From contig JACPHN010000271.1 of the NCBI GenBank assembly GCA_016188575.1, forward strand, positions 1 through 12,543: DNA of 12,543 nt, read 5' to 3'. Within the stretch, counting starts at the first letter, position 1. Each line of letters begins with the position of its first letter. This document shows, piece by piece, positions 3,543-12,543 of the stretch. The notes below the pieces were generated by a model. It worked only from the letters and a program-made list of their open reading frames with translations, searched no databases and was not told where the DNA came from. Position numbers and translations under genes: made by a program. This DNA is from Candidatus Schekmanbacteria bacterium (GTDB taxonomy: Bacteria; CSSED10-310; JACPHN01).

Positions 3543-3764
3543 GTGGTCCAGAAGAGAAGGCTTGACCTTGTCGCGAAAGTCAAAACAAAAGAGGGAGAGG
3601 TCGGAGAGGTCGAGCTCGACGGCCTGCGCATGATTCAGCGGGGCGAGGGCAAGGTCAGCGTGTACTTCCCGACGGATCGCGGTATCAAATACGAGCACGT
3701 CGAAGAGCGGAAGTACCTCGCTCAGTTCTTGCAGGTCGAGAACGTGCCCACGGCGAAATCCTGA
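3543..3764 (+). CDS. Small conserved-looking protein of unknown function, 73 aa
   Basis: I do not recognise this family. It starts at GTG 3543 and ends at TGA 3764. It is believed real because it has a near-perfect Shine-Dalgarno sequence (TAAGGAGGA, 3527-3535, seven bases before GTG) and a near-consensus promoter just upstream. The protein is charged and lacks a signal peptide or membrane segment. It starts [18 protein letters not shown], then alternating patterns ([32 protein letters not shown]) suggest a small beta-rich cytoplasmic domain, followed by a helix ([14 protein letters not shown]). The frame is open far upstream to 2871, but that stretch lies antisense to dtd and is a shadow. 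It is the only plus-strand gene here, divergent from dtd and convergent with the PD40 gene, whose last 80 bases it overlaps. Confidence 0.8.
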
Positions 3765-4887
3765 ACGATCGCGGTTGTCTTCCCGCTACCGGGCCGGAAA
3801 AGGTGCGGATGCGAAGGAACGCCGCTGCGGCGAGGCCGAAAAGCGCGGCATAAGCCCATGCTTCGGCGGCAGGGACAGGGGGCGTCGTTTTCCGGGCGAT
3901 GCCAAGGTCGAATTGCCAGTCGACGCCTCCGCGGTAACGGCCAAAGACGAACGTCATGTACTGGTCGTCCTGGGTAATCGAGACCTCGCCAACGACGATT
4001 GCGTTTTCGGAGCCTTCGGTCTGCGGGGCCGACACCTGGACCACCACCTGCGGATCCAAATAGCCCCCGGAGGGATTGCGCCGTGCCCGATAGATGCAGG
4101 CGAGACCGTCGCAACCCGGCCCCTCGGCGCTCCAGTACAGCTCTGACAGATCCGCGGAGGCAAACGGTTGCCAGGGGCGCACCGTATCGCTTACCTCGCC
4201 CGTCACGGGTTCGGGAGTCGTCCATCCGTCGTCTACGCGGCGCGTGCTGTAGATCTTTCTCGCTGCCGCGGAACACGTCGAACCTGCGGGGTCGTCGCGG
4301 TCGGAGTCGAAAAATAGCGTCTGGCCGTCCGCCGACAAGTGCGGGTTGTCCTCGCTGCACGAGGTGTTGATCGGGGCGGGAAGCGCAACGGGTTCTACCC
4401 ATTCGGTCCCGGAACGAATCGTCAGGAAAATGTCCGCGTTCGGCTCGAACCGCGCAAAGACCATAACGGCCCCGGTCGCGTCAAGGCCGATCGCCGCCTC
4501 GTTGTAACCCGGGTCCGGGCTGTTTGCAGGGTGATGTTCGACGACCCAGCCGTCCCCCTCTACACGTGCCGAGTAGATGTCAAAGGGCGCCCCGTTTTGT
4601 CCCGGTCGATCTGGTCCAGAATCCACGAGCTCGTTGTTTTCGAGCAGCCGCCCAGCGTCGATCCGAGTGTAACCAAAATAGAGCTCCGCGCCCGACGGTA
4701 GTATGAATGGCGAATCCTCCCAGCCGCTGGAGTTGATGGGCGACGGCAAGGCGCGAGGATCGCCCCAGCCAAGGTCGAAGGAAAGCCCGGCGATAGGTTG
4801 CCCCACCGGCGGATCCGCGGGGCCCCACGCCGCCGTTGCTGAGGTACACAGGAAAATAGTTGTGGCGAGACAAAGAAGCGTTTTCAT
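3685..4887 (-). CDS. Exported PD40/TolB-like beta-propeller protein with C-terminal membrane anchor
   Basis: A 400-aa protein beginning with a Sec signal peptide ([20 protein letters not shown], 1-20). The body repeats a PD40-like pattern about five times: [16 protein letters not shown] (58-73), [18 protein letters not shown] (130-147), [19 protein letters not shown] (181-199), [18 protein letters not shown] (239-256) and [15 protein letters not shown] (304-318). This matches the SPDG-x-x-LYFxSD repeats of TolB-like propellers, usually extracytoplasmic binding domains; the ligand is unknown. After PPVPAAEAW comes a hydrophobic segment (about 342-358) and a basic stretch, like the short C-terminal sorting anchors (IPTL/PEP-CTERM type). 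Unusually, about 40 further Arg/Ser-rich residues follow and overlap the plus-strand gene, suggesting loss of an earlier stop. ATG 4887 has GGAG eight bases upstream. It lies 38 bases after glpK. Confidence 0.82.
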
Positions 4888-4893
4888 GAATAT

Positions 4894-4922
4894 CTCCGGG
4901 GCGTTGCAGAGCCCCGCCGGAG
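4894..4922 (-). promoter_or_regulatory. Hairpin enclosing the Shine-Dalgarno sequence of the PD40 gene
   Basis: CTCC GGGGC (4894-4902) pairs with GCCCC, a three-base bulge, then GGAG (4911-4922) around an eight-base loop: nine GC-rich pairs on the plus-strand reading, mirrored in the transcript. The GGAG that serves the ATG at 4887 lies in one arm (complement of 4894-4897), so the fold would hide it. There is no T-tract, so it is not a simple terminator for glpK. Confidence 0.5.
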
Positions 4923-4925
4923 GCG

Positions 4926-6419
4926 TCAGTCCCCACGACGCCGAGTAAGCACCCGCGCCACCGCTTCCTTCCACGCCGCGTATTGTCGATCGCGAGCCTC
5001 GCCGGAGACCGTCGGTTCATAGCGTTGCGCGATCCGGATCAGGTCCGCAAGGTCGGCGGCTTTCCACATCCCGCAGCCGAGACCTGCGAGATAAGCCGCA
5101 CCCGCGGCGGTCGTCTCGGGATTCTCGGGGATCTCCACCGACACCCCGAGGAGGTCCGCCTGGAACTGCATGAGAAACCGATTCCGGGTCGCGCCGCCAT
5201 CGCACCGCAAGTTCCCGAGACGGACACCAGATTCCGCGCTCATCGTATCGAGGACGTCACGAGTCTGGTAGGCCATCGCCTCCAGCGCCGCGCGAATCAC
5301 CTGCCCTCTCGTGGTGCCACGCGTCAAGCCGAGCAGCGCGCCGCGCGCATCGGGATCCCAGTACGGAGCGCCAAGACCGACAAAAGCCGGGACCATATAG
5401 ACGCCTCCGTTGTCCTGGAGCGATTCCGCAATGGCCGCGCTGGCGCTGACATCCGGAAGAATCTCGAGGCCGTCGCGGAGCCACTGCAGCGCCGCACCGG
5501 CGATAAAGATTGCGCCTTCCAGCGCGTACGCCGGGCCACCCTCAGCGTTACACGCCATCGTCGTCAACAGCCCGCGTCCCGAGGTCCGCGCTTCGTCTCC
5601 GGTATTGAGCAGAACGAACGCTCCGGTGCCGTACGTATTCTTTGCCAGGCCGGGCCGTACGCACCCCTGGCCAAATAGCGCTGCCTGCTGATCGCCGGCG
5701 ACACCGCTGATCGGGATCCCTGCCGGCAATACCCCCGCGGCGGTGTGGCCAAAAAGCCCGGCGCTCGCGTTTACCTCTGGAAGCAGCGCAGTGGGCACTT
5801 CCATGATCCGGCACAGCTCCGGGTCCCAGCCGCGCGTGTGGATATTGAAAAGCAGGGTTCGCGAGGCGTTGGTGAAGTCCGTCGCATGGCGCTCGCCGCC
5901 TGTCAGCTTCCAGATCAACCAACTGTCGATCGTTCCGCAGCGCAGCTCTCCCGCCTCCGCGCGCGCGCGCGCTCCCGCAACGTGGTCGAGAATCCACCGG
6001 ATCTTGGTGCCCGAAAAATACGGATCGAGCAGCAGCCCTGTCCGATCTCGGAAGCAGGATTCATGTCCCGCCGATCTGAGCCGCTCGCAGTACTCGGCGG
6101 TCCGCCGGCACTGCCAGACGATCGCATTGTGTATGGGCTTGCCGGTTTCGCGGTCCCAGACGACGCACGTTTCGCGCTGATTGGTGATTCCCACCGCGGC
6201 CACGCCGGCAGGCGACACGTGCTCTTCGCCGAGGAGCCGGGCGATGAGCGACGACGTTGCGGCCCAGATCTCTTCCGCATCGTGCTCGACCCAACCCGGT
6301 CGCGGAAAGATCTGCCTCAGCTCCTGGTAGCGGCTGGCCGCGGGCTTGCCTCTCTCGTCAAACAGGAAAACGCGGGTTCCGGTTGTGCCTTGATCGATCG
6401 CGAGAACGTAACGGTCCAT
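4926..6419 (-). CDS. glpK: Glycerol kinase
   Basis: A 497-aa FGGY-family kinase, the normal length for GlpK, which phosphorylates glycerol to sn-glycerol 3-phosphate with ATP in the cytoplasm. The N-terminal phosphate loop is AIDQGTTGTRVFLFD (7-21). Glycerol-binding residues expected from the E. coli enzyme are all present: Arg82 and Glu83 (ITNQRET), Tyr134 (DPYFSGTK) and Asp243 (VAGDQQAALFGQ, the catalytic base). NAIVWQCRRTA (98-108) and the C-terminal nucleotide-site motif CDGGATRNRFLMQ are canonical. The ATG at 6419 has CAGGAG eight bases upstream. No glpF or glpD is adjacent, so glycerol uptake and dehydrogenation must be encoded elsewhere. The following PD40 gene has no obvious link to glycerol. 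Confidence 0.97.
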   Translation of the reverse strand: MDRYVLAIDQGTTGTRVFLFDERGKPAASRYQELRQIFPRPGWVEHDAEEIWAATSSLIARLLGEEHVSPAGVAAVGITNQRETCVVWDRETGKPIHNAIVWQCRRTAEYCERLRSAGHESCFRDRTGLLLDPYFSGTKIRWILDHVAGARARAEAGELRCGTIDSWLIWKLTGGERHATDFTNASRTLLFNIHTRGWDPELCRIMEVPTALLPEVNASAGLFGHTAAGVLPAGIPISGVAGDQQAALFGQGCVRPGLAKNTYGTGAFVLLNTGDEARTSGRGLLTTMACNAEGGPAYALEGAIFIAGAALQWLRDGLEILPDVSASAAIAESLQDNGGVYMVPAFVGLGAPYWDPDARGALLGLTRGTTRGQVIRAALEAMAYQTRDVLDTMSAESGVRLGNLRCDGGATRNRFLMQFQADLLGVSVEIPENPETTAAGAAYLAGLGCGMWKAADLADLIRIAQRYEPTVSGEARDRQYAAWKEAVARVLTRRRGD

Positions 6420-6715: not shown

Positions 6716-7104
6716 CTACGTCGATTCGTCCAGCCCGCGGACCATGCGCTTGATCCCGGCCTTGAGAAGAGGGACACGGAAGTTGATGATGAGGCCGATC
6801 TTCGCGCTCGACAGCTTGAGATAGGACAGCAGATGGGCCTCGTGCACGGGTTCGATTCGGGTCACCGCCTTCGCTTCCACGACCACAACCGCTCCACCCA
6901 GAGGTCCAGACGATAGCCACAATCCAGATACAGGCCTCGATACCTGAGGGGCAGCAGTACCTGCCGCTCAACGCGAAGACCTGAGTCAGCGATCTCGAAG
7001 GCAAGACAGGCTTCGTACGCCGATTCCAAGAGGCCCGGGACGAGCTCGCGGTGAACCTGAATAGCAGCTCCAATGATGCGTTCTGTAAGCTCATTGACCT
7101 CCAT
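6716..7104 (-). pseudogene. GxxExxY-family protein gene, broken by one missing base
   Basis: Two overlapping frames together give a whole GxxExxY protein (about 129 aa once joined). The first frame from ATG 7104 reads MEVNELTERIIGAAIQVHRE, GLLESAYEACLAFE (the GxxExxY signature) and YRGLYLDCGYRLDL, then hits a stop at 6862. The second frame continues with GGAVVVVEAKAV, HEAHLLSYLKLS, IGLIINF and LLKAGIKRMVRG and stops at 6716. The join requires one added base near 6900-6903. The family is a predicted PD-(D/E)XK-like nuclease fold: Asp in YRLDL and the EAK of the second piece are the likely active-site residues. Its cellular role is not established. The start has GAGGAGG seven bases upstream. 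Inverted repeats flank the gene. It is either a pseudogene or a consensus error. Confidence 0.88.
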
Positions 7105-7535: not shown

Positions 7536-8503
7536 CTACCAGCCATTTCCGCCGAGGAATCGAGCGATCCGCCCCTGGACTTCCCGCTCGACCTCCGCGA
7601 GCCGGGCCTTGGGGTCGAAAGCGGGGTACAGCTTGCCCATCGAGGGGCGCGGTTCGTAGCCAGGGGCGACCTGTTCGACCTTCCCGCGCAGCTTCTCGAG
7701 ATACCGTTCGAGCAGATCGGCAGCCAGGTCGTAGCGCTTCAAGTCCATGTCCGCGATGTCGGCGGCCTGCTCGTAGGTGCCGGGGGTTTCCGGATCCTCC
7801 GCGATCGCCTTGACGTACCACTCGAGCTTTTTCGCCGGGAGCGGCTCCGCTTCGGCGCGGTCTCGCGCCCACAGCGCGCGGGTGAATGGCGTGTCGCGAT
7901 TGCACATCACAAACCCGGAGTGCCCCGTGACGATGCCGCCATCGGTCCAGGTTGCCGAGCAATCAAGGTCGTAGCGGCCCGGATCCAGCTTCTCGGTAGC
8001 TCGCCGGGGACGGTAACGGAAAAGTGCGGCAGGCTCTGCCGGACACCGCCAGAGGGGAACTGATACCGGTCCTCGACCGGGTGGTCCGTATAGGGTTGCC
8101 AGGCGAGGGGTATCCGCACCCCCTTGTCGCTGAGCAGGACACAGGCGATTGACTCGATCCACTGGCGGGTGAGAATGACAATCGGGTAGCCCTCGGGAAG
8201 CTCACCGGTTTCCGGGAAGTGCATTCTTTGTTCACGAGATAGCGATTCGGAGCGGGTTGGCTGGTGCTTACTGCCAACGTGGAGGTAGAACTGCAGCCTC
8301 GCCCCCCGCGGCATCGGGCATGACCTCCAGCCAGCCTCGATGGCGCCGAAAAAGGACCCAAATTCGGGACAGTACCAGCCCCAGACGCGCATGCGCAACG
8401 AGATCTGCTTCGCTGGCACCGGAGCGCCCTCCTGGGCAACGGCGAGGGCTCCCGCGGCCGGACCGAAAGTCAGCAGAGCCAGGGTCAAGTGCGAGGTCTT
8501 CAT
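7536..8503 (-). pseudogene. A' : second copy of the signal-peptide/TPR-like protein, frameshifted
   Basis: Paralogue of the protein at 9317-10300. ATG 8503 starts a Sec signal peptide (MKTSHLTLALLTFGPAAGAL, then AVAQ). The first frame carries IVILTRQWIESIACVLLSDK and ends its homology at SVTVPGEL. Homology resumes one base out of frame with ATEKLDPGRYDLDCSATWTDGG and continues to GGNGW at 7536. One missing base near 8000-8002 explains this. Restoring it gives 322 aa against 327 for the intact paralogue. The C-terminal half has helical, TPR-like repeats (YDLAADLLERYLEKL). The start overlaps the end of B' as ATGA, so the pair is translationally coupled. Function unknown; probably extracytoplasmic. 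Two cysteines (SIAC, DLDCSA) are shared with the paralogue. Confidence 0.85.
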
Positions 8504-9316
8504 GGTGTCCAATCCTTGATATTGAAGCCCAGGCTGTCCTCGTCGCGCGTGCCCGGGCCGCAGAGCTTGGTGAAGATCGTCACGTGGGAATAATCCGGCG
8601 TCCCCCAGGCATTGACCGCCTGGTAGATGTCCCAGATGGGTGCCTTCAATACGCAGGGCGCGCCCTTGGCCTTTTCTTGGAGGAGGCACGCCAGGTCGAC
8701 TGGCGCGCACGCGTCGGGATTGCCGTGCTCGTTCAGGCTACTGGCGTGCAGCATCTCGTGGGCGAAGACGTTGGGGTGACGCGCTCCAGCAGCGCCGAAT
8801 CTGCGGTTGGCATGTTTGGCGAGATGCAATCAGGAGCCAACACCGGGTTGATCCAACGCGGCGTGCCGAAGCCCGCGGTTTGCCCCCACATGTACGGCTG
8901 GCAGGGATATCCCGGCTTGGAGGTCATTACGTTCACTACCATCGCCCACTGCTCGCCGCCCGCCGGAGTGGCGCGATGTGCCGCGAGGTGGGCGTAGGGC
9001 GCCAGCGTGCTCGCCATCGGGCCGTCGGGAAAAACCCATTCCCGCTGGTGCACGCGGGTCCCATCCTTGTCGTCCCCGGATAATCCGCTTAGCCTTTGCC
9101 GGTTGACCAGGAAGAGTCCTTGGTGAGCGGGTCCGCCCGAAGGTGCGGCGGCGAGATGGTGTCCTGTCCCCGAGATTCCGGGGCGGCTGCCGGAATGCCG
9201 TTTCGACCCGGAGGAGATCCGGTTGCAGCTCTCGCCGCGGGAGCTGCCGTAGCGCTGGCGGGACGTCGAGACGTCGCGCGCCTCGACTCGTAGGTGGCGA
9301 CGGTCTCGCCGAAGAG
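8500..9316 (-). pseudogene. B' : truncated second copy of the HExxH protein, with frame breaks
   Basis: Homologous to the C-terminal third of the gene at 10516-12543. The last piece reads NVFAHEMLHASSLNEHGNP to NIKDWTP and stops at 8500. Upstream, in another frame, lie REWVFPDGPMASTLAPYAHL and GTPRWINPVLAPDCISPN. Further upstream, in a third frame, is ISPPHLRADPLTK, matching PPPHVRTDP of the intact copy. Each join needs one added base (near 8773-8776, inside a run of four Gs, and near 9117). The zinc motif HEMLH and four downstream cysteines match the intact paralogue. Beyond about 9150 the homology fades, and the N-terminal 450 or more residues are absent. No convincing start codon exists; the 5' limit given is simply the stop of gene A. 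Probably a remnant of a tandem duplication. Confidence 0.72.
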
Positions 9317-10300
9317 CTATTGCATCCCGAGGGCCCTCTCGCCGGCGCGGAAGCCCGCGATGGCTCTCTCGAGCTCGGCCTCGATCTCCTTCAGCTCCGC
9401 CTCCGGGTCGAACCACCGCCGGTCGTGGGGGATCACGTTGGCAGTGTATTCGAAGGCCCGGTAACCGGGGGTGCCGTGCTCGACGTTCCATCTCAAGGCC
9501 GCCACGTATTTCTCCAGGTAATCGGCGGCGCGATCGTACTCGCCGCGTTTGGCGGCGGCCAGACACGCCCAATAGTAGATGCCGGGAACTGTGGTTTTTT
9601 CCGCCGCGGCCGCGAGAAAGTGGTCGAGGGATTCCGATTCGCAGCCGAGCCGGGGGAATTGGCAATAAATGCCCCACTGGAAGTAGTACAGCGCCCGGGA
9701 ATCGGCGGAGTCGTTCGCGAGGATGGTGAGCGGCTGCTCGACGCGCACGAGCGACCCATCGGCCCAGACCGCGGAGCACGCGATGCGGTGATCTCCCACT
9801 GGCAGCGGCGCGGTCACGGTGCCGCTGAGGGCCACGTCGAAACGCGGGAGCGGGATTGGGTACTGCAGGCCCCGGCCAGGCTCGAAAGACACCCGATAGG
9901 ACGGCTCGAGATCGCCGTTGCCCATGCGATACTCCCACCAGGAAAACGGCACGTCCCCGCCGTCGGTGACCTCGATCCGGCACTGCACCGACTGCAGCCA
10001 CTCGCGGGTGAAGACCACCTCTCTTGGATGGGGTCCGCCCGGCTGCCACTCGTCCCGCTCGAGGCGCGGGCTGAAGAAGGCGATCCTGAAGGCGTACGGC
10101 GCGCCGCGCACCGCAATCGTCGAGGTGATGATGCGGGCGAAATCCGGCGATAGCAGATCGTAGGCGCGCCCCAGCAGGTCGTCGCCGGGGCGCGAGTAGC
10201 TCGTGCTCGACAGCCTGATCCCCACCAGCGGGGTCTCCTCCGCTGCCGCGACCACCGCGGCGAGCAGCAGCACGGCCAAAGCGGCGGCGCGGCAAGCCAT
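9317..10300 (-). CDS. A : secreted or periplasmic protein with TPR-like C-terminus, unknown function
   Basis: A 327-aa intact protein. ATG 10300 begins a clear Sec signal peptide (MACRAAALAVLLLAAVVAAA, cleavage near residue 20). The N-terminal half looks beta-rich, with EVVFTREWLQSVQCRIEV (about 94-111) and HRIACSAVWADGS (171-183); these match the paralogue A' around both cysteines. The C-terminal half is helical, with TPR-like packing (YWACLAAAKRGEYDRAADYL, 243-262, then EKYVAALRW) and a charged terminal helix (ELKEIEAELERAIAGF). I do not recognise the family. It follows gene B by 215 bases. An in-frame ATG at 10513 would add 71 residues, but these are translated from palindromic repeats and would precede the signal peptide, so it is rejected. 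Duplication alongside a B-type gene suggests a functional pair. Confidence 0.85.
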   Translation of the reverse strand: MACRAAALAVLLLAAVVAAAEETPLVGIRLSSTSYSRPGDDLLGRAYDLLSPDFARIITSTIAVRGAPYAFRIAFFSPRLERDEWQPGGPHPREVVFTREWLQSVQCRIEVTDGGDVPFSWWEYRMGNGDLEPSYRVSFEPGRGLQYPIPLPRFDVALSGTVTAPLPVGDHRIACSAVWADGSLVRVEQPLTILANDSADSRALYYFQWGIYCQFPRLGCESESLDHFLAAAAEKTTVPGIYYWACLAAAKRGEYDRAADYLEKYVAALRWNVEHGTPGYRAFEYTANVIPHDRRWFDPEAELKEIEAELERAIAGFRAGERALGMQ

Positions 10301-10323
10301 TCCGGCCCCGCACCTGTTCACCA

Positions 10324-10341
10324 CCCCCGGCGTTGCGGGGG
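10324..10341. repeat. REP-like palindrome, second of three
   Basis: CCCCCG-GCGTTG-CGGGGG, followed by a purine-rich GGAGGGGAGG stretch. Its layout resembles the element at 6610-6623. It lies 24 bases upstream of the start codon of gene A. Confidence 0.5.
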
Positions 10342-10438
10342 GAGGGGAGGAGAGGGGCCTGCGACGCCCGACCGAAACGATGATCGAGGCCGCCATTCTC
10401 GCCCTGTTCTCTGGCCGGTTCGAGACCCGGTCGACGGC

Positions 10439-10469
10439 GGTCGGGGCGGGTTTGGAACCCGCTCCGACC
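10439..10469. repeat. Long palindrome (14-bp arms), third REP-like element
   Basis: Arms GGTCGGGGCGGGTT (10439-10452) and AACCCGCTCCGACC (10456-10469) pair at 13 of 14 positions around a three-base loop. Translated, it gives the VGAGxKPAPT string often seen as a spurious peptide in deltaproteobacterial annotations, which marks it as a member of a known dispersed repeat type. It lies about 50 bases after the stop of gene B and could end or stabilise its transcript. Confidence 0.65.
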
Positions 10470-10515
10470 CAAACGCGTTGCCGGCCTGAACGCCGGCGGC
10501 GATTCTGGCTCATTC

Positions 10516-12543
10516 CTACCAATCCTTGATGTCGAGCTTGCCCTGGTCCTTGTCTTGGGACGCCGGACCGCACAGCTCGTAGTCGACGGTGACGTGGGAG
10601 TAGTCGGGAGGCGAGCCGGCGTGGTTGGCCTGGTAGACCGCCCACGCCGGCGCCCTGAGGGTGCAGCGGTCGCCGCCGGCTTCTTCGCGCAGCGCGCACT
10701 CCAGGGCCTGCTGCGGCGGGTCGACCGGGCACTGCTCGGGGTGGCCGTGGTCGTCGATGCTGCTGGCGTGCAGCAGCTCGTGGGCGGCGATGTTGCGGAT
10801 CAGGTAATCCTGAAAGGCCGGGGGCGCCGGCTTGGTGTCCAGTCTGATCTGGTCGATGGCGACCTTGCTGGGGCCGGAGCGGCCTGGCGAATCGGCCCGG
10901 TCGGTCATGCCCCAATAGTACTCTCTGGGCATAACGAAGGTGAGTGTTTTCAACCACGCGGCGTGTTGTAACTGCCCACTCTGCACGGCGCCGTGGGGGT
11001 TGACCGCCAGCCACGGCGTGACGTCGGTGCCGTTGGGAACCACCCGCGAAACCAGCGCGATGTCGGTCGCCGACCCATAGCCCAGTTGAAATCCGCCGAG
11101 ATCGGCCTCGACCAGCACGAACAGGTTCTTGTTCTTCGGGTCGGTGCGGACGTGCGGCGGCGGGTTGCTGGTGCCGAAGACGAAGCCGCGAAACTCGTCG
11201 TAAGCCACCAGCCCGTCTCCCGGCAGCGAGATCCTCGCGTACCGATCGATATCCTGGTCGGCGAGCGGGTCGATGGCCAGGCGGGGCGCACCCGCCCGGA
11301 GCGGGGTGATCCAGTTGCCGTCGGGGATCGCCTCTCCCGGGCGGGTGGGGGGAATCTGCATCACCTTGTCCGCGTCGGTGGCCGGAGGCGCGAGCGGGTC
11401 GAGGCCGATGGGGATCGGGGTCGCCGCATAGTCCGGGGTCCAGCGCGCGGCGAAGAAGCCCTTGGCGCCGAAGTCGGTGGATTGCGCCGTGAATTGCACG
11501 ACGTCTTTGGGTGCCTTTGGGGCGACGTGGTCGTAGGTGGCCGTCCAGTAGGCGGTGCGACCGTCGTTGAAGAACGAATGCACGCCGGCGGCGAACGGGT
11601 CGACCCACGGCGCGGCCCACGGGGTCGTCGTCGCGGCCGTGGTCTGCGCGCCCGCGGTCACCAGGGTGAAGATCATGTCGTCCTGGTTCGCGGGCACCGA
11701 CCCGAGCGGCCAGTTGCCCGCGATCCCGGGGAAGCGGCTCGTGGCGAAGGCGAGCTCGAGCTTCGCCTTGCTCAGCGCAAAGGTCGGTTTCACGGCGATA
11801 CCGAAGGTCAGGGTGCTGCCGGCGGGCGCGCCGGGGTTGGCGATGTCGCCTTCGGGGAGGTAACCGGGCGGCGGGCCGTTTTGCAGCCAGGCGTGCCAGG
11901 CCCGCCAGGTCGCCGGCACCCGCTGCTTGGTGGCTGTCGTCGTGGTCGCGCCGGCGCTCTTGTCGAACGGGGTCGTCACCGTCGACTCGCCGGAGAACCC
12001 CGAAATCGACCGGTCGGCCTCGAGCTTCGCGCCGAAGCCCGTGGCCACGAGAGGGTCGGCGAAGTCGTAGCACTCGTGGGACCGCGATCCGTCCGGCTCC
12101 TGCATGCGCAGCACCGTGAGCGTGCCGCTTGCGAGGTCGAGCGGCGGCTCGAGCTCCGCCACGCCGGAGAGGAGGTCGGCCCGGTCGCGCTCGAGGTGCG
12201 CGACGAAGCGCACCGGCTTGCCCGGGTAGAACCACGCCTTGTAGATCCTGCCGTCGTCCGGCGTCGTCACCGCCACCACCTCGTCGCCGCCGAGCGCGTA
12301 GCCGAACAGGGCCGGCTCGGTGGTGACCCGCAGCCAGTCGCCGCCGTCCTCGTGTTTGTGCCACGCCGGGGAACCGTCGTAGATCTGCACGTTCCATGCC
12401 CCGTGGCGGCGCACGGAGCCGCTGAGCTTCAGCCCCGAGAGCGAGGGGAGCGGTTGCGCCACGGACTCGACCTTCAGGTCGAGGTCGATGTTCCAGATCT
12501 CGACCGTGTCGGCCGCCCGCGCCGCGACGACGTTGCTTTCGGC
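10516..12543 (-). CDS. B : large HExxH zincin-like protein, probably extracytoplasmic, 5' end beyond the window
   Basis: 675 residues are visible and the frame is open to the right edge; a GTG at 12462 is not convincing as a start because coding-like sequence (VEIWNIDLDLKVES) continues above it. The N-terminal two thirds are beta-rich with threonine-rich stretches, as in extracellular proteins. At about 442 is GDGLVAYDEFRGFVFG, then HVRTDPKNKNLFVLVEADLG (464-483). A zinc-binding motif HELLHASSIDDHGH starts at residue 588: His588, Glu589, His592, with Asp598, His599 or His601 as possible third ligand. The spacing differs from the HExxHxxGxxH of metzincins. Four cysteines after the motif are conserved in B' and suggest disulfides. 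A metalloprotease role is inferred from the motif only. TAG at 10516; gene A follows. Confidence 0.8.
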   Translation of the reverse strand, partial: AESNVVAARAADTVEIWNIDLDLKVESVAQPLPSLSGLKLSGSVRRHGAWNVQIYDGSPAWHKHEDGGDWLRVTTEPALFGYALGGDEVVAVTTPDDGRIYKAWFYPGKPVRFVAHLERDRADLLSGVAELEPPLDLASGTLTVLRMQEPDGSRSHECYDFADPLVATGFGAKLEADRSISGFSGESTVTTPFDKSAGATTTTATKQRVPATWRAWHAWLQNGPPPGYLPEGDIANPGAPAGSTLTFGIAVKPTFALSKAKLELAFATSRFPGIAGNWPLGSVPANQDDMIFTLVTAGAQTTAATTTPWAAPWVDPFAAGVHSFFNDGRTAYWTATYDHVAPKAPKDVVQFTAQSTDFGAKGFFAARWTPDYAATPIPIGLDPLAPPATDADKVMQIPPTRPGEAIPDGNWITPLRAGAPRLAIDPLADQDIDRYARISLPGDGLVAYDEFRGFVFGTSNPPPHVRTDPKNKNLFVLVEADLGGFQLGYGSATDIALVSRVVPNGTDVTPWLAVNPHGAVQSGQLQHAAWLKTLTFVMPREYYWGMTDRADSPGRSGPSKVAIDQIRLDTKPAPPAFQDYLIRNIAAHELLHASSIDDHGHPEQCPVDPPQQALECALREEAGGDRCTLRAPAWAVYQANHAGSPPDYSHVTVDYELCGPASQDKDQGKLDIKDW

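Follow-up and report, generated by a model that had tools for sequence, protein, structure and literature searches.

Organization of the A-B locus

Two unrelated types of gene, here called B and A, lie side by side twice on one strand of this DNA, and the question raised by this arrangement is whether B and A are partners and, if so, what A does for B. The window analyzed is the whole contig C125 (12,543 nt), which belongs to a host genome of 9.2 Mb in 275 contigs. Its minus-strand open frames are ordered B2, A2, B1 and A1, followed by ordinary genes, as the B-A-B'-A' order proposed in the initial annotation predicted. The sequence motif attributed there to B was also present, as HELLHASSIDDH in B2 and HEMLHASSLNEH in B1; A2 and A1 each carry the announced signal peptide and the VQC/IAC and CSAxWxDG motifs, and the ATGA overlap reported for the second copy was found between B1 and A1 (8503-8500).

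The same annotation considered the locus to be a duplicated two-gene module. Both gene types are indeed homologous between the copies: B1 and B2 are 55% identical over 92 aa (E 8e-24) and A1 and A2 34% identical over 160 aa (E 2.5e-14), values that discard a chance likeness. However, copy 1 has decayed and is an orphan cassette rather than an intact module. B1 (8500..9155, minus strand) is an orphan tip fragment corresponding only to the C-terminal part of a B gene, its reading frame has at least two breaks and its last open frame spans 8829-8500. A1 (7536..8503, minus strand), an A-family gene of a different subtype from A2, is split over two frames by one frameshift near 7991-8009. The DNA at 9155-7498 of the window is 86% identical to an intact copy in contig C176 (1,664 nt, 11 gaps).

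Neither this decay nor two further features of the window had been recorded before, namely the truncation of B2 by the contig end and the presence of extra DNA at A2. B2 (10516..12543, minus strand) encodes the last 675 aa of an exported protein of metzincin-like type, as judged from its open frame, its paralogues and its organization into body and tip; since the gene runs past the contig end, the N-terminal part, signal peptide included, is absent. The extra DNA (about 200 nt, 10301..10500) lies between the expected start of A2 and the A2 signal peptide and is partly repetitive, dispersed pieces of the repeat occurring elsewhere in the host genome.

Three other regions of the minus strand were examined by eye. 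A MerR-type helix-turn-helix and the start of a serine recombinase, resembling an IS607-like resolvase, occupy positions 1-426 and run past the contig end. A small GxxExxY-type protein, apparently split over frames, is encoded at 6716-7104, and a secreted protein with PD40-like repeats at 3685-4974, the latter with a short hydrophobic C-terminal segment that is possibly a sorting signal.

Characteristics of the B and A proteins

The complete B proteins of the host begin with a signal peptide and a beta-rich domain, after which a Pro/Thr-rich linker leads to a long beta-rich body and the tip; these domains were assigned by eye, complete B proteins having no Pfam hit. Among the B proteins of L040 (aa 203-255), L042 (aa 433-487) and L043 (aa 460-510), two hydrophobic segments joined by an Arg-rich loop break up an Fn3-like stretch, resembling a membrane hairpin within the domain. 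The B profile (A6) gave 44 PDB matches up to an E value of 10 to metzincin-type zinc proteases, each of them weak (best E 0.017) and most of them aligning at the stretch from HExxH to the Met-turn. In Pfam, M12B reprolysin was reached below threshold (best E 2e-4) by the canonical paralogue only, and no M12B match was obtained for B2 of the window. No curated Pfam or NCBIfam family was found at its cut-off for either A or B; the initial annotation had not recognized the pair as a named system. From these comparisons B is identified as a putative divergent metzincin, and the best explanation of its tip is a predicted C-terminal domain of metzincin type, or formerly so, carried by an exported protein.

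The zinc-binding helix of B2, HELLHASSIDDH (10747..10782, minus strand), was located by alignment with canonical HExxHxxGxxH relatives. In this alignment its third His stands one residue late, Ser replaces Gly, and an Asp occupies the position of the third ligand in HExxHxxGxxD enzymes, so B2 does not show the HExxHxxGxxH/D motif. A Met-turn is not seen either, as the CxM of the relatives aligns with CTL or CVL in window-type copies. The canonical zinc motif is kept both in paralogues without A and in other phyla, and the cross-phylum alignment ruled out a chance HExxH in B. The boundary between body and tip is marked in B2 by the conserved block GDGLVAYDEFRGF...HVRTDPKNKNLF (11119..11220, minus strand), with near-invariant columns across phyla. 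The predicted single-chain model of B (pLDDT 39) was discarded.

A2 (9317..10300, minus strand; 327 aa) comprises a signal peptide, which in the A proteins of the window looks cleavable rather than an anchor, an Ig-like domain with two invariant Cys, and a TPR-like tail. The predicted model (pLDDT 70.6, pTM 0.71) is a beta-sandwich followed by helices. A fold search with it yielded weak Ig-like matches to transglutaminase and macroglobulin domains (best Z 5.7) and the Foldseek rows were mixed; such matches may be used as support for a beta-sandwich and nothing beyond. With respect to the tail, the match to Pfam TPR_2 had an E value of 0.53, and the PDB proteins retrieved by the A profile, all at this tail, were only TPR or helical-repeat proteins (best E 0.0065).

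The A-B family in the host genome

About 15 relatives of B occur in the host genome, where a search with B2 gave some 20 further matches, and about 18 A genes were counted there with fragments included. How many copies truly exist is uncertain because many contigs of this fragmented assembly end inside B or A genes. Contig ends fall unusually often inside or beside them (C73, C76, C90, C107, C133, C176 and C181, as well as C195, C206, C215, C226, C229 and others), and it is probably the family itself that breaks the assembly.

Wherever the DNA upstream of an A gene is present (12 of 12 cases), a B tip directly precedes it. The two genes are also coupled: the stop codon of B is followed by the start of A a few nucleotides on, or both overlap as ATGA, the exception being A2 of the window. 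Iterated profiles run on the host contigs with family members defined three kinds of B. Kind (i), that of the window, has the motif HE[LM]LHASSxxxHG; kind (ii) has NELTHxVGxDDH, with the first zinc ligand (the first His) replaced; and kind (iii) has a canonical HEVGHAxxxxHY with a Met-turn-like SAM, or HEGGHxxxxxHY. For kinds (i) and (ii), A follows wherever an intact B end and downstream DNA are present, and one broken B tip fragment, in C229, has no A. Kind (iii) genes have no A and are directly followed by a different gene encoding a signal-peptide protein. These proteins gave no significant match to A in a profile comparison and we do not claim them as A homologues.

Pairs in other genomes and phyla

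A search of other genomes with a single B sequence gave no match outside the host, and profiles were needed. Scanning genome contigs with the B profile identified one relative, carrying HELGHAIGEPHH, in a deltaproteobacterial MAG. Directly after this deltaproteobacterial B gene lies a 1795-aa LamG/Ig protein (L057:11487-16871, plus strand), whose relationship to A was unsupported on comparison. Among 386 genomes the A profile produced no strong match outside the host and one weak match, in G065 (5.0 Mb, single contig), where the only A match lies 19 nt from the only B gene. In the G065 partner a signal peptide and a beta domain accompany clear TPRs (TPR_12, E 2.4e-6), and hhalign aligned this protein with the A profile over 219 columns (probability 93.7%, E 1.8e-7). 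It is an A homologue beside the B homologue of another phylum, and the one external partner whose tie to A is a profile match along its length; for most others the tie consists of position and shared TPR.

More loci, most of them in the phylum of G191, were obtained with a cross-phylum B profile. An ORF matching the partner profile, on the same strand and within 400 nt, accompanied B at 29 of the 34 external loci, 20 of these 29 being outside the profile seed; most of these ORFs overlap B or lie within 20 nt of it. The recurrent adjacency by which the initial annotation proposed to judge the module was thus found both in the host and beyond it, contrary to the case that would have refuted the module, with homologues lying mostly apart or belonging to well-known unrelated families. 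At the same threshold no host-genome locus matched the external partner profile. As that profile is TPR-rich, what we claim is a recurrent exported TPR partner and not the homology of every partner to A. TPRs were found by Pfam in the external partners, 28 of 31 of which have a hydrophobic N-terminus, a feature in which hydropathy cannot separate an anchor from a signal peptide. Some of them have a lipobox, and the hydrophobic segment is mostly followed by a Pro-rich stretch. The partner tends to be downstream of short B genes and upstream of long ones. On this profile evidence, the same kind of pairing appears in several unrelated bacterial phyla.

Further observations were made in these genomes. 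B has undergone large expansions independently in G495 and G498, from another phylum (12 and 8 matches, respectively), and L140, of the same phylum, contains a tandem B-A-B'-A' in which the B genes are broken too. At L128 the gene directly after B (3927-4490, minus strand) gave a weak match to type II secretion system protein C (E 6e-4), which would be compatible with type II secretion of B.

Exchange of tips and selection on the pair

Distances among the tips are concordant with those among the A proteins (Mantel r 0.94, p 5e-5, 11 pairs), a correlation that partly reflects three well-separated classes. The B gene of C176 is mostly 84-96% identical at DNA level to those of the window and C214 over roughly the first 420 nt available, and identity drops to 40-55% from about nt 600. 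Its tip and A are close to those of C195a (dN 0.05-0.21 in tip regions and 0.22 in A) and distant from the window copy (dN 0.45-0.70 and 0.91, respectively). Cassettes recombine near the GDGLVAYDEFRGF...HVRTDPKNKNLF block: the crossover of C176 is just before it, adjoining the GDGLxAYDEFRGF motif, and the orphan B1-A1 of the window begins just past that motif. A second orphan, in C226, is made up of the last 66-92 aa of a tip and a second A. Within the host genome the B tip and A can be taken to move as one cassette, as shown mainly by one clear chimera, C176; this exchange had not been noted in the initial annotation. A tentative extension, to which we give appreciably less than even weight, is a repertoire driven by recombination, in which constant B bodies would take interchangeable cassettes of tip and cognate A from other loci, head and partner being re-tooled together, and orphans such as B1-A1 would be leftovers or donors.

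A conserved N-terminus and a variable tip co-inherited with its neighbour are features of polymorphic toxins, and one must ask whether the tip could be a variable, toxic protease head whose cognate inhibitor or immunity protein, A, protects the producer. Joint exchange of tip and A onto a conserved body mimics CDI/Rhs loci and their orphan CT-immunity modules, as do the displaced units of tip and A found in tandem in the window and in C226. Unlike those systems, A and B have no known toxin, immunity or trafficking domain, the Pfam and NCBIfam searches having revealed neither a toxin domain nor one for polymorphic-toxin trafficking; in addition, no A without a tip was seen, although solitary immunity genes would be expected, and the partner is often upstream of B in another phylum. 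Selection also weighs against this reading, which we regard as unlikely, since a conserved subfamily with an incomplete zinc site, NELTH, has lost a zinc ligand and its A genes are nevertheless constrained.

This constraint was quantified with simple pairwise dN/dS estimates. Kind (ii) gave about 0.04-0.25 in B and 0.14-0.29 in A, indicating strong purifying selection, and kind (i) 0.14-0.70 in B (close pairs) and 0.55-0.56 in A, indicating a weaker one. Values were below 1 in every close pair, well below enough to rule out pseudogenes as an explanation of the whole family. Strong purifying selection on a subfamily without a zinc ligand argues that A is not merely an inhibitor, and the kind (ii) values would be expected if A served folding or assembly and not only the silencing of catalysis.

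B tips, whether catalytic or not, could also be the binding heads of diversified surface or recognition proteins, displayed with A as a structural subunit, the many copies serving ligand diversity. The large expansion of paralogues, the pseudoenzyme subfamily and the exchange of cassettes would suit this idea, and so would the fast-changing stretch before HExxH, which is 53-59% identical between the window and C214 when the rest is 71-92% identical. Against it, relatives in other phyla retain the canonical catalytic motif and dN/dS stays under 1 in all close pairs; we hold it to be the least probable of the explanations discussed here.

Proposed function of A

The options offered in the initial annotation, with a chaperone, an inhibitor or a receptor as the partner of an exported protease, are still the right set and a partnership is supported by the comparisons described above. 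Our preferred reading, which we rate at about even, is that A is the dedicated envelope partner of B, an escort or holding chaperone, or a regulator, for its tip. The one-to-one pairing, the co-exchange with the tip and the purifying selection despite an incomplete zinc site favour it. What we infer concerns the binding of A to the tip, its activity as chaperone or holder, the route of secretion and the substrate: A would bind the B tip within the cell envelope and escort it, most likely aiding its folding, and would prevent its activity until it is exported, in the manner of the membrane-associated chaperones Lif, for a secreted lipase, and CpaB, for a secreted metzincin, although A would work by way of TPR.

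The closest precedent is the CpaA-CpaB pair of Acinetobacter, in which an adjacent membrane chaperone is required for secretion of the metzincin, and the tail of CpaB blocks the CpaA active site in the crystal (PMC4713064, PMC7542363). CpaA, a type II secreted M72 metzincin, resembles B in being an exported metzincin with extra domains and an adjacent cognate envelope partner, and CpaB shares an N-terminal hydrophobic segment with most external partners. The lipase-specific foldases Lif, LipB and LipH are likewise cognate, adjacent and built of an N-terminal anchor, a linker and a helical domain, the likeness in the anchor coming from hydropathy only. As in the Lif and CpaB class, the partner is encoded beside its client in A-B. 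The differences are that CpaA, unlike window-type B, keeps a canonical zinc site, that the client of the foldases is a lipase, and that CpaB carries an SRPBCC-like domain and Lif does not belong to the TPR proteins, whereas A combines an Ig-like domain with a TPR-like tail, so no homology can be invoked. To our knowledge, neither cassette exchange nor a large family has been described for CpaA-CpaB. The cleavable-looking signal peptide of the window A proteins speaks against a chaperone as well.

A further objection comes from exported TPR proteins that act as protease adaptors, such as NlpI with Prc and LbcA with CtpA (PMC5686067, PMC8764530); CtpA is activated by LbcA, a lipoprotein of the outer membrane containing 11 TPRs (PMC8764530). 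By analogy, A could be a TPR adaptor or activator that presents substrates to B, or switches it on, as an envelope protease. The pairing of an envelope protease with an exported TPR-type protein, a lipoprotein in NlpI and LbcA, is common to these systems and A-B, and many external partners resemble lipoproteins or anchored TPR proteins. On the other side, Prc and CtpA are serine CTP proteases, and we know of no co-exchange of NlpI or LbcA with a protease tip. Strict one-to-one pairing and the swapping of A with the tip fit a cognate folding partner at least equally, and in the several A-linked B copies without a complete zinc site there would be nothing to activate. We consider an adaptor a lesser possibility, about half as credible as the escort chaperone that we prefer.

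Significance of the A-B family

In the open-access literature we found no description of pairs formed by a metzincin and a TPR protein. As far as can be judged from gene and protein comparison, A-B forms a large family, so far undescribed, whose members pair a secreted protein, putatively of zinc-protease type, with an exported helper of its own encoded beside it. If this is true, dedicated metzincin-partner pairs would not be peculiar to Acinetobacter but would form a system with a TPR partner that extends over several phyla, and the catalytic head could be swapped together with its partner. The family would also give a testable function to neighbouring hypothetical genes in many genomes, and its natural matched and mismatched pairs could serve for studies of chaperone-client specificity.
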